Positions 50,273-54,499 of a stretch of 64,000 bases of DNA are shown one piece after another. Numbering within the stretch: the stretch's first letter is position 1; the number at the start of each line of letters is the position of its first letter. The DNA is from Cyanobacteria bacterium PR.3.49 (GTDB taxonomy: Bacteria; Cyanobacteriota; Vampirovibrionia; Obscuribacterales; Obscuribacteraceae): the NCBI GenBank assembly GCA_013997645.1, contig PNKB01000001.1:1-64000 (forward strand). The letters are read 5' to 3'. The position numbers and the translations under genes are program-made. The notes beneath the pieces were generated by a model that made no database searches, was not told where the DNA came from, and worked only from the letters and a program-made list of their open reading frames with translations.

Positions 50273-51463
50273 CTACTGCGTTCCCGGCGTCTCGCTCAAT
50301 TGGGTATCCGGCAAATTCATCTTCTTGCGAATCAGCGGCAAGGCTTTGCGAGCCGCAGCTTCGCCGGCGGCCATCGCGCGGGCAATGTCTTCCTTGCTGT
50401 CCGAGAAGATCTGAATGCCGCTCACATCCGGCGCTATCACGATATCGGCAAATTGCAATTGATGCTCATCGGTTACCGCAAGCACGATGTCTGCGAGCCT
50501 TTCAGTCACCGCGCGATAGTGTCGCATCCTCTTTTCCGGAATGGTTCGCAGAGGATCGTCCACCAGCACAGCGACTACGACGTCCGCTCCGGTGTCGCGC
50601 GCTGCAGATGCAGGTAAATTGGCGCGGATGCCGCCGTCGACGCAGAGTTTATTTCCGATTTTCACAGGTCTGACAATAGGCGCAAGAGTTGAGCTGGCCC
50701 GCATTGCTGTCGCTAAATTTCCTTCGCTGATGCGATACGCCTGTCCGTCGAGCAAATTGGTAACCACGGCGGAAAAAGGAATGTTCAGGTCCTCGATATT
50801 CTCTTTGCCTTCCGGTATGTGTTTCTCCAAAAATTTCTGATATTTCTTGCCGGACATCACGCCGACCGGTTTAGTACGAAATTTGGAAAGCAGTACTGAA
50901 ATTGGCAAGCAAATTACTTTTGCAGCAAATGTCGGCAAGTAGGATTTGCGGAAGTCTTGAAAGCTCTCTTCGCTTTGAAGTTCGTCTAGCGGCACACCGG
51001 CTGCATACATGCCACCCACGATTGCGCCCATGGAGTTGCCGACGATGTAATCGATCGGAATTTTCTGTTCTTCAAGAACGCGAAGAACCCCGACATGAGC
51101 TGCTCCCCGCACGCCGCCGCCACCCAGAGCCAGAGCCATCGTTTTTCGGTTTACCTTGTGCACCTGAAACCTGCCGTCGCCTGTAGCGAACGGCCGAAGC
51201 TTTGGAATGTAGCCGAATTCCATAGATTCTGGACTGGCGGGTCTTATTTCGGTCGCTTTGGTCTCAATCGATGTCGGCTTGGGGTTAACTATGACCTCAG
51301 GAACCGGACCGTGAGTCTCGACTGTTGCCTGGGTCGCCTTCTCGATGCTCGTGTGGGTAACGCCGGAAACGTCAGGGTGCGCCGAGGTTTCCGCCCAAAC
51401 CGCCGGACTGGACGTCACCGTATAGAGAAGGGAAACGAGCAATACCAAATGACGCGAGTTCAT
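50273..51463 (-). CDS. Patatin-like phospholipase (RssA-type)
   Basis: Signal peptide; LALGGGGVRGAAHVGVLRVLEE, GNSMGAIVGG, DGGIRANLP; likely start 51463. Confidence 0.92.
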   Translation of the reverse strand: MNSRHLVLLVSLLYTVTSSPAVWAETSAHPDVSGVTHTSIEKATQATVETHGPVPEVIVNPKPTSIETKATEIRPASPESMEFGYIPKLRPFATGDGRFQVHKVNRKTMALALGGGGVRGAAHVGVLRVLEEQKIPIDYIVGNSMGAIVGGMYAAGVPLDELQSEESFQDFRKSYLPTFAAKVICLPISVLLSKFRTKPVGVMSGKKYQKFLEKHIPEGKENIEDLNIPFSAVVTNLLDGQAYRISEGNLATAMRASSTLAPIVRPVKIGNKLCVDGGIRANLPASAARDTGADVVVAVLVDDPLRTIPEKRMRHYRAVTERLADIVLAVTDEHQLQFADIVIAPDVSGIQIFSDSKEDIARAMAAGEAAARKALPLIRKKMNLPDTQLSETPGTQ

Positions 51464-51610
51464 AAAATTCACCTGGAGCTGAAAGCCTGAGAACGTGACT
51501 ATTTCTGGGTTTAGCGCCCTTTCTGCCTGTCGCCAATCGGCTATCTCACAATCGGACCCGTCAGGGCGGACTGGGCGAATGCCCCACAAGTTCCACAATT
51601 CCGCAAAATA

Positions 51611-51638
51611 AGGACAGATCCAGTCCTTTATCTATAAT
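51611..51638 (+). promoter_or_regulatory. Putative sigma70-type promoter for metB-like/lysC operon
   Basis: aggaca (51611-51616), 16-bp spacer, consensus TATAAT (51633-51638). Confidence 0.45.
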
Positions 51639-51644
51639 GCAAAT

Positions 51645-51982
51645 GCGCCAAAGTTCTGTTAAGCCGCGCCAGTTGAGCCTTCGCAGCCTCAAGCTCTGCG
51701 CAGCCGCCGCTTTCGCCGCCTGAGAAGCCTCTAAGCTCCCGCCCGGCGTTACATTGCAGGCACCGGAAATTGACTACCGGCTCAATCCGTCCATAATGGG
51801 GGCATGTTTAATCGCTCGACCACCACTATGGTAATGCCGATGCCCTCCGGGAGGGGGGTGCCATTGCCACACGTGATCAGCGTATAAGTCTCAACTAAAG
51901 ACTAAAGCTCACCCGATATAAGTGTTGCAATGCCCTCTCTTCCGTGCGGAAGAAGGGGCTTTTTGTTTTGGAGGTTTTTTCG
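51645..51982 (+). promoter_or_regulatory. Long structured 5' leader (candidate cis-regulatory RNA/attenuator)
   Basis: ~340 nt non-coding; hairpin ggtaatg...cattgcc (51830-51868) enclosing ccctc/gaggg; terminator-like hairpin just upstream of SD; no SAM-I/II/IV or cobalamin box recognised by eye. Confidence 0.5.
51932..51968 (+). terminator. Intrinsic-terminator-like hairpin plus T tract (candidate attenuator)
   Basis: gccctctcttccg-tg-cggaagaaggggc followed by tttttgtttt; 13-bp stem with one G-U and one mismatch; SD (ggagg) immediately after. Confidence 0.65.
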
Positions 51983-53209
51983 ATGTCACAAGTTAATCCC
52001 ACAGCCGGAAGGCAAGAATACTGTTTCGCCACTAAGGCAATTCATGAAGGGCAAGAACCGGACCCTAGCACTGGCGCATTGATCACGCCCATTTATCAAA
52101 CGTCGACCTTTGTTCTTGAAGAACTCGGCAAGAACAAGGGTTTCCAATACGCAAGAACACACAATCCAACGCGCTCGGCTCTGGAAGAATGTTTAGCATC
52201 TTTGGAAAACGCCAAGTATTGTTTGGCATCAGCGTCAGGTTTGTCGGCAGCCGCCACAGTGATAAACCTTCTGTCTGCCGGCGATCACGTGATAGTTGGT
52301 GAAGACGTCTACGGCGGCGTTTACAGATTATTCGAAAAAGTATTCTCTCGATACGGTCTGACATTCACATACATTGACGGCAAAGATATCGATGCAATTG
52401 AGCGTGCAATAACACCTAAGACAAAACTAGTCTGGCTAGAATCGCCGACCAATCCACTCTTGAGACTCGCCGATTTGCGAAAAGTCGGAGAACTGACAAA
52501 GTCGCGTGGTTTGATCTTCGCAGTCGACAATACATTCGCCACGCCATATTTCCAACGTCCTATCGAACTTGGTGCCGATGTCGTAATTCATAGCACCACT
52601 AAATATATTTCCGGACACAGCGATATCATCGGTGGTGCAGTAGTTACTTCTAATGATGAACTCTATGAAGTGCTCAAATTCCACAACAACGCAGTTGGTG
52701 CAGTGCCAGGGCCGTTTGACTGCTTCCTCGCTCTGCGCGGCGTGAAGACGCTTGCACTCCGCATGAAAGAACATCAAAACAATGCATTCGCCGTTGCCCG
52801 TTTCCTCGAACAGCATCCAGGAATCGAAGAAGTTTATTACCCCGGTCTCGAAAGCCATCCGCAATACGATCTGGCTCGCGAGCAAATGAAGGGTTTTGGC
52901 GGAGTTGTCGCATGCGTTGTTAAAGGCGGAATCGAAGCAGCAAAAGACGTAGTAAGCAACACAAAACTTTTCCAACTGGCGGAAAGTCTAGGTGGTGTCA
53001 AGTCGCTCATTTGCCACCCCGCGACAATGACACATGCACCGATTCCCAAGGAAGTTCGCGAGCCGCTCGGCATCGTCGACGGATTGATCCGCCTCTCGGT
53101 CGGCATCGAAGAAGCAGATGATTTGATTCGCGATCTGGATGCAGTTTTGCCGCGTGCAAAGAGTTTCTCGAACTCAAAAGAGAAACAGCTCGTTGGCGCC
53201 AACGCATAA
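51983..53209 (+). CDS. metB: Cystathionine gamma-synthase/lyase-family PLP enzyme
   Basis: FATKAIHEGQEPDPSTGALITPIYQTSTF, GLSAAATVINLL, STTKYISGHSD, RLSVGIEEADDLI; synthase versus lyase not resolvable by eye. Start 51983 after ggagg SD. Confidence 0.9.
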   Translation: MSQVNPTAGRQEYCFATKAIHEGQEPDPSTGALITPIYQTSTFVLEELGKNKGFQYARTHNPTRSALEECLASLENAKYCLASASGLSAAATVINLLSAGDHVIVGEDVYGGVYRLFEKVFSRYGLTFTYIDGKDIDAIERAITPKTKLVWLESPTNPLLRLADLRKVGELTKSRGLIFAVDNTFATPYFQRPIELGADVVIHSTTKYISGHSDIIGGAVVTSNDELYEVLKFHNNAVGAVPGPFDCFLALRGVKTLALRMKEHQNNAFAVARFLEQHPGIEEVYYPGLESHPQYDLAREQMKGFGGVVACVVKGGIEAAKDVVSNTKLFQLAESLGGVKSLICHPATMTHAPIPKEVREPLGIVDGLIRLSVGIEEADDLIRDLDAVLPRAKSFSNSKEKQLVGANA

Positions 53210-53239: not shown

Positions 53240-54499
53240 GTGAGTATCAAAGTTCTAAAATTTGGCGGCTCGTCCGTGAAAAACATCGGGCGTATCGAGC
53301 ACGTAGCCGACGTAATCGCCGGCTACAAACCGGACCCAGTGGTTGTGGTCGTCTCCGCCATGGGTGACACCACTGATCACTTGCTGAATCTTGCACGGCA
53401 ATGCAGCACCGCTCCCGATCAAAGAGAACTTGATCTCTTACTCTCAACCGGGGAGCAAGTTTCGATTGTGTTGCTCAGTTTGATCCTGAAAGCGAAAGGT
53501 CTTTCAGCAAAATCTCTGACTGGGCAACAAGCTGGAATCAGCACCACGGACGAACATGGCTCCGCGAGAATACTCGATATCGACGCGGAGCAGATCAGAA
53601 AAGAACTCGAGCAGCATGATGTCGTTGTCGTCGCCGGATTTCAGGGTGTGACTGAATCCGGACAAATAACAACGCTCGGTCGCGGCGGTTCCGATACAAC
53701 GGCCGTCGCCCTGGCGGCCGCGCTGGGAGCGAGCGAATGCGATATCTACACTGATGTCGACGGTGTTTTTACAGCAGATCCGAACTCGATAAAAGAGGCA
53801 ATACCGCTGAAGGAAATTGGTTACGCGCAATGCGTCACACTCGCTCGCAATGGTGCCCAAGTAATTCATCCCCGCGCTGTCGAGCTGGGCGAGCAATATG
53901 ACGTCGTCGTGCGCGTCAGAAACACATTCAACCCATCCAATCCAGGAACTGAAATAAAAGGAGAATCCGAAGTGGAAAGAGTCAAACAATTCTGCGGCGT
54001 CGCGGTTGACGCCAATCAAGGTTCAATCTTAATCAAAAAACTCAAACAGGCAAACAATCTTCTGAGAGAAGTCACCGAATGCCTCAATGAATGCGGTGCG
54101 TTAGTCGACAACATCAAACAAGTAAATAGCAGCGATTCGGCTTTCTATGGCAGTTTGCAGATTTGCTTCCAATATAAAGACAGAGAAAGAGCAGAGTCTG
54201 CGATCTCACTTCTCAACCAAGAAAATCCCTATGTTTCGATTTGCGCTGACCTTGATTTGTGCAAAGTAACGCTTGTAGGTTCGGATGCGCAAGGGAATGC
54301 AAAAGCTTCTATCCGCGCGATTGGTATTTTGGAAGAGAGTGGCATCGAAGTAAAATCAATTCGCACCAGTGATCTGGCAATCTCATGCCTCGTCAACAAA
54401 GTAGATGCGCAAATAGCGGCACGCTTGATCCATGAAGCGTTCCAACTCTCGGCTGATTTCGGAGCAACCAAAACCGAAGAGCTGTCTCTGATTGCCTAA
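53240..54499 (+). CDS. lysC: Aspartate kinase
   Basis: VLKFGGSSVKN, GRGGSDTTAVALAAAL, DVDGVFTADP, C-terminal ACT regions; GTG start after aaaggag. Confidence 0.93.
   Translation: MSIKVLKFGGSSVKNIGRIEHVADVIAGYKPDPVVVVVSAMGDTTDHLLNLARQCSTAPDQRELDLLLSTGEQVSIVLLSLILKAKGLSAKSLTGQQAGISTTDEHGSARILDIDAEQIRKELEQHDVVVVAGFQGVTESGQITTLGRGGSDTTAVALAAALGASECDIYTDVDGVFTADPNSIKEAIPLKEIGYAQCVTLARNGAQVIHPRAVELGEQYDVVVRVRNTFNPSNPGTEIKGESEVERVKQFCGVAVDANQGSILIKKLKQANNLLREVTECLNECGALVDNIKQVNSSDSAFYGSLQICFQYKDRERAESAISLLNQENPYVSICADLDLCKVTLVGSDAQGNAKASIRAIGILEESGIEVKSIRTSDLAISCLVNKVDAQIAARLIHEAFQLSADFGATKTEELSLIA

Follow-up and report, generated by a model that had tools for sequence, protein, structure and literature searches.

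A methionine-rich leader peptide and a predicted transcription attenuator upstream of metB-lysC in the Obscuribacterales family

In the stretch of DNA analysed here (64,000 nucleotides from Cyanobacteria bacterium PR.3.49, hereafter the window), a metB-like gene (51983-53209, + strand), recognised by the Cys_Met_Meta_PP family model and nearest to cystathionine gamma-synthase, is followed by lysC, which family models identify as an aspartate kinase gene (53240-54499, +). The metB start codon (ATG at 51983) lies 3' of its own Shine-Dalgarno (SD) sequence, read as GGAGG at 51970-51974 (+). In a similarity search, the nearest named relatives of the MetB protein belong to Melainabacteria and to Obscuribacterales MAGs, and a lysC motif is found 3' of metB in 20 of 22 relative loci. 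By these matches, the genes 3' of the leader are assigned to the methionine/aspartate pathway. On the other side, a gene for a patatin-like phospholipase (family models; 50273-51598, -) is divergent from the metB leader.

The preliminary description had seen no convincing ORF over the ~340 nt preceding metB. This does not hold, as positions 51804-51887 (+) encode a leader peptide of 27 codons, MFNRSTTTMVMPMPSGRGVPLPHVISV, closed by a stop codon, that is kept in relatives and runs through the hairpin described below. Its putative regulatory stretch, Thr Thr Thr Met Val Met Pro Met, spans 51819-51842 (+). Across 13 non-redundant leaders, methionine accounts for 50 of 341 codons (14.7%) in frame, against one and two of 354 (<1%) in the other two frames; at the sequence level, the locus carries a short leader ORF enriched in codons for the amino acid that would be sensed. 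Both this ORF and its promoter are kept in 22/22 metB leaders, and the ORF measures 22-31 codons across the 25 leaders considered below. The peptides themselves diverge between relatives (for example MQNRLNMSMAMSMPSGEGGVASCEFWHN, MNNRATMMSMTMMSPPREVEFMHMYRS and MRKLMNMCSMMSMAPVAREDELHRFMQS), all having internal Met codons, while Thr codons vary from 0 to 5 per leader and are missing from some relatives, so that Met is what the leaders have in common. In the window's genus, three Thr codons stand 5' of the Met codons, and this run may add a threonine contribution to sensing.

The promoter kept in relatives (51770-51797, +) is composed of a -35 box TTGACT (51770-51775), a 16-nt spacer and a -10 box CATAAT (51792-51797). 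The -10 box is found in all 22 metB leaders, accompanied by TTGAC in 19 and by TTGC in the remaining three, and the sequence AAATTGACT...CATAAT just 5' of the leader ORF is invariant within the genus. The gap between the -10 box and the leader ATG is 6-7 nt in 25/25 leaders (the 22 metB leaders, scanned with allowed gaps of 4-13 nt, and three further ones), and none of the Obscuribacterales-family leaders inspected has an SD sequence at normal spacing before the leader ATG. From this spacing and the missing SD, the two observations on which the reading is based, the leader ORF is probably leaderless, with a predicted transcription start at or next to the ATG at 51804; the constancy of the gap means that the leaderless translation of such a regulatory ORF can be tested directly. 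The TATAAT noted earlier at 51633-51638 is present in the sequence, but is not conserved as a promoter, genus relatives reading TATTAG, TAATAG or TATAAG, and its promoter role was dropped on this ground. About 20 nt 5' of the -35 region stands a CGTTACA box (51747-51753, +). Boxes of this type (GTTACA, TTTACA, TTAACA or GTAAAC) occur at near-constant spacing in 15/16 aligned leaders, the combination with the promoter occurs once in the organism's own genome, and the box is a possible activator site. Another block kept in the genus, CTGTTAAGCC..CGCCAGT (51665-51685), lies well 5' of the leader promoter.

Downstream of the promoter, the leader can form alternative pairings. The 1:2 hairpin (51829-51869, +), a putative antiterminator blocker whose 5' arm overlaps the Met codons, corresponds to the GGTAATG..CATTGCC stem with inner CCCTC/GAGGG pairing described before, and was read again from the sequence. 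Region 2, the antiterminator 5' arm (51848-51871, +), can pair with region 3, the antiterminator 3' arm (51923-51944, +), which overlaps the 5' arm of the 3:4 intrinsic terminator (51932-51964, +). The latter consists of a stem (51932-51959) and the T tract TTTTTGTTTT, with the SD GGAGG thereafter, as had been reported, and is found in 25/25 leaders, placing an intrinsic terminator just 5' of genes of the matching pathway. It was missed by a simple terminator scan, probably because of a mismatch within the stem. The duplicated arm was likewise recovered, ATGCCCTC being present at both sites, so that GAGGG is able to pair with either. Mutually exclusive pairings and an attenuator ahead of metB-lysC, as first suggested, are strongly supported by comparative pairing and by folding.

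Taken as a whole, the 341-nt region folds no better than its shuffles (z -1.1), and the idea of the entire 341-nt leader as a structured RNA was dropped for this reason; the 165-nt leader by itself reaches a z of -2.2 against shuffles. The complete leader of the window folds into the 1:2 and 3:4 hairpins, with the terminator present, and removal of its first 43 nt, mimicking a ribosome over arm 1, leads to the 2:3 antiterminator with the terminator absent. In an occupancy model that supposes equilibrium folding and an assumed ribosome footprint, the terminator probability of the window leader is 0.91 when unoccupied, 0.85, 0.01 and 0.97 with a ribosome at the first, second and third internal Met codon, respectively, and 0.99 for a ribosome on the stop codon; a stall at the first or the third Met codon still leaves the terminator predicted. 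A 1:2 blocker whose 5' arm would lie under a ribosome stalled at the Met codons is found in this family, with modelled switching at equilibrium in 17/25 leaders: in these, at least one Met-codon position of the ribosome brings the terminator probability below 0.2, and in the other 8/25 none does. A ribosome at the stop codon gives a terminator probability of at least 0.96 in 25/25 leaders, and in two of them (L008 and L013) the model barely forms a terminator even when no ribosome is placed.

How general is this arrangement? Relatives were chosen by MetB similarity, leader similarity not being used, and a covariance model built on the 22 metB leaders recovers one strong leader copy per genome in 25 of 50 Obscuribacterales-family genomes. 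These 25 leaders have a common layout (-10 box, ATG, Met-rich ORF, 1:2 hairpin, antiterminator arm, stop codon, terminator, gene), with a fixed geometry: 8-19 nt separate the start of the last upstream Met codon from region 2, shortly 3' of which comes the stop codon. Wherever it is visible, the 3' gene is metB or, directly, lysC: in L056 (894-1032) the Met leader stands straight before lysC and metB is absent, and the L052 copy lies close to a contig end. The leader is missing from another MetB group (L024-L031) that is more distant, and no convincing Met-rich ORF was found 5' of metB in families f2, f3, f4, f6 and f7. Low-scoring matches of the model (L074-L076, L078 and L079) look like chance terminators, and a search of plasmids gave no match. 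In the organism's own genome, another locus (L063:1501-1660, contig C48) has a second TTGAC/GATAAT promoter 7 nt 5' of an ATG and a short ORF, MDILFTPSRREM, ended by a stop codon and followed by a hairpin with a T run, 5' of an ORF that is RtcB-like by eye.

In each leader, region 2 pairs with the terminator 5' arm and with the bases just 5' of that arm. Pairing of regions 2 and 3 is stronger between a leader's own arms (mean -27.4 kcal/mol) than between exchanged partners (-21.2, sd 0.97). Not one value as good came out of 20,000 permutations among 13 lineages; this test is alignment-free and takes about one leader per genus, which only partly removes the shared ancestry of these lineages. 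Judged by this comparison of sequences, the antiterminator arms have co-evolved. The terminator helix shows changes on both sides at 8/11 pairs and a structure better than all slid controls, in an alignment that is model-fitted and hence biased towards its own structure. The mutually exclusive antiterminator and terminator helices have, in this way, evolutionary support.

We are confident that these features are best explained by a transcription attenuation of metB-lysC that is ribosome-mediated, as in trp- or thr-type operons, and senses Met-tRNA. Transcription would begin at or beside the ATG of the Met-rich leader ORF. When methionine is plentiful, the ribosome would reach the stop codon, and either the 1:2 hairpin or the ribosome would separate region 2 from region 3; with region 2 held off, the 3:4 terminator would form and transcription would end before metB. 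When methionine is scarce, the ribosome would stall at the Met codons and cover arm 1, leaving region 2 to pair with region 3, so that no terminator would form and read-through into metB-lysC would follow. The sensor is most likely the translating ribosome itself, reading the Met codons.

Could an RNA sensor use the same terminator and antiterminator? Methionine and lysine genes are often under riboswitch control, and a leader with alternative pairings and a terminator is what a divergent or new riboswitch for SAM, SAH, Met, Lys or Thr would present. The absence of any known riboswitch core, already remarked on in the preliminary description, is confirmed in the window, where the Rfam search gave nothing at the gathering threshold and sub-threshold matches at chance level only, and the Rfam covariance model for SAM-I (S-box) found no match in the window or in 50 family genomes. 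Moreover, the columns that are invariant across genera outside the terminator are mostly the start and Met codons, and the Met codon enrichment is confined to one frame. Conservation across genera consists, as far as can be read from the leaders, mostly of ORF features (start codon, open frame and Met codons) and complementary arms, with no ligand-binding core, so that the suggestion of a divergent or new riboswitch class finds no support, and only a very slim chance is left to it. A T-box reading uncharged tRNA-Met directly would also account for the terminator, and in some Firmicutes Met genes are under T-box control, one such RNA being mentioned before methionine transporters (PMC2965389). 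However, the T-box covariance model from Rfam matched neither the window nor the 50 family genomes, the leader is much shorter than a T-box, and its ORF is conserved, which makes this explanation next to negligible.

Alternatively, the leader ORF could serve mainly to couple its translation to that of metB or to let ribosomes re-initiate there, or the terminator could be a constitutive damper of transcription, methionine sensing playing no part. An upstream short ORF can indeed boost the translation of a gene (PMC4833913), but here its stop codon lies ~95 nt 5' of metB with the terminator in between, and metB has its own SD. Such a function would leave the co-evolved antiterminator arms and the in-frame Met enrichment without a reason, and we regard it as quite improbable compared with attenuation by a ribosome reading Met codons.

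Attenuation by leader peptide is known from amino acid operons. The trp, his, thr, ilv and leu leaders of Proteobacteria and Actinobacteria likewise have a short ORF rich in codons for the amino acid of the pathway, exclusive 1:2, 2:3 and 3:4 pairings, and an intrinsic terminator before biosynthetic genes; here, by contrast, the enriched codon is Met, the controlled genes are metB-lysC and the host is a member of the Melainabacteria, the likeness being one of design, with no claim of sequence homology. Closer in its amino acid is MetL of Streptomyces lividans, 5' of metNIQ, a predicted leader peptide likewise containing Met and Thr, one of those reported as leaderless in that species, and associated with methionine genes (PMC8079986). 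MetL nevertheless stands ahead of a transporter, its Met residues are few and no typical terminator was found with it (PMC8079986), whereas the metB leader has a terminator that is clear and an antiterminator that has co-evolved. The ilvB-II motif of Corynebacterium, likewise found once per genome before one gene, was a structured RNA tested as a riboswitch first and later explained as a uORF attenuator (PMC10272879), although it concerns branched-chain amino acids and Actinobacteria, unlike the metB leader. The S-box (SAM-I) and T-box RNAs regulate methionine genes through transcription termination in other phyla, and are absent from the window and the family. Leader peptides had been known mainly from Proteobacteria and Actinobacteria, to which one study added Firmicutes (PMC2965389), no conserved RNA structures were found upstream of the methionine operons of Actinobacteria (PMC1262725), and no reliable data on attenuation were available for cyanobacteria as of 2016 (PMC4833913). 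The search of the literature, out of whose reach most subscription journals lay, turned up no Met attenuator upstream of metB and none in Melainabacteria. Every element of the metB leader has a precedent, and attenuation in this group had lacked reliable documentation. The metB leader would provide a concrete methionine sensor for bacteria that have neither SAM-I nor T-box RNAs, in a lineage adjoining the cyanobacteria, where attenuation has been counted as undocumented.

The covariance model also matches small genomes of family f5, which we take to be gut Gastranaerophilales. Their leaders (for example MKNNATMMMQMMMMQSLSKGGFCCVDRMC) have an SD sequence in front and are followed by a gene for a protein of ~450 aa, which has no Pfam or NCBIfam match above cut-off, four hydrophobic stretches and a predicted structure of too low quality to be of use (mean pLDDT 41.5). 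Eleven f5-type leaders came via the covariance model; when the protein was followed by protein similarity alone, a Met-rich ORF was found upstream in 14/15 higher-scoring orthologs versus 0/5 weaker paralogs. Among the 23 sister-family leaders tested for pairing, which have 5-18 internal Met codons, the same permutation test of the antiterminator arms gave 0/20,000 exchanges as good.

MetH, MetE and MetQ have no match in twelve f5/f11 genomes, nor has MetB in the f5 genomes searched; judging from their gene content, these families are probable methionine auxotrophs. These missing matches, together with the Met-rich leader, make the ~450-aa protein a candidate factor for methionine acquisition. 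Tentatively, and with the balance still tilted somewhat against it, attenuation by Met leader peptides might extend throughout the Melainabacteria in two forms, leaderless upstream of metB-lysC in the Obscuribacterales family, and SD-led in the auxotrophic small-genome families, there preceding a protein that is unannotated and probably associated with the membrane. Were this so, the ~450-aa protein would be the missing factor of methionine uptake or salvage. The relative of the switch flags a gene family that has no annotation and belongs to probable methionine auxotrophs, in which the usual synthesis enzymes and MetQ are lacking. SD-led Met-rich leaders with a terminator and an antiterminator are seen in f5/f11 at L064-L073, L077, L110, L111, L113-L123 and L129.
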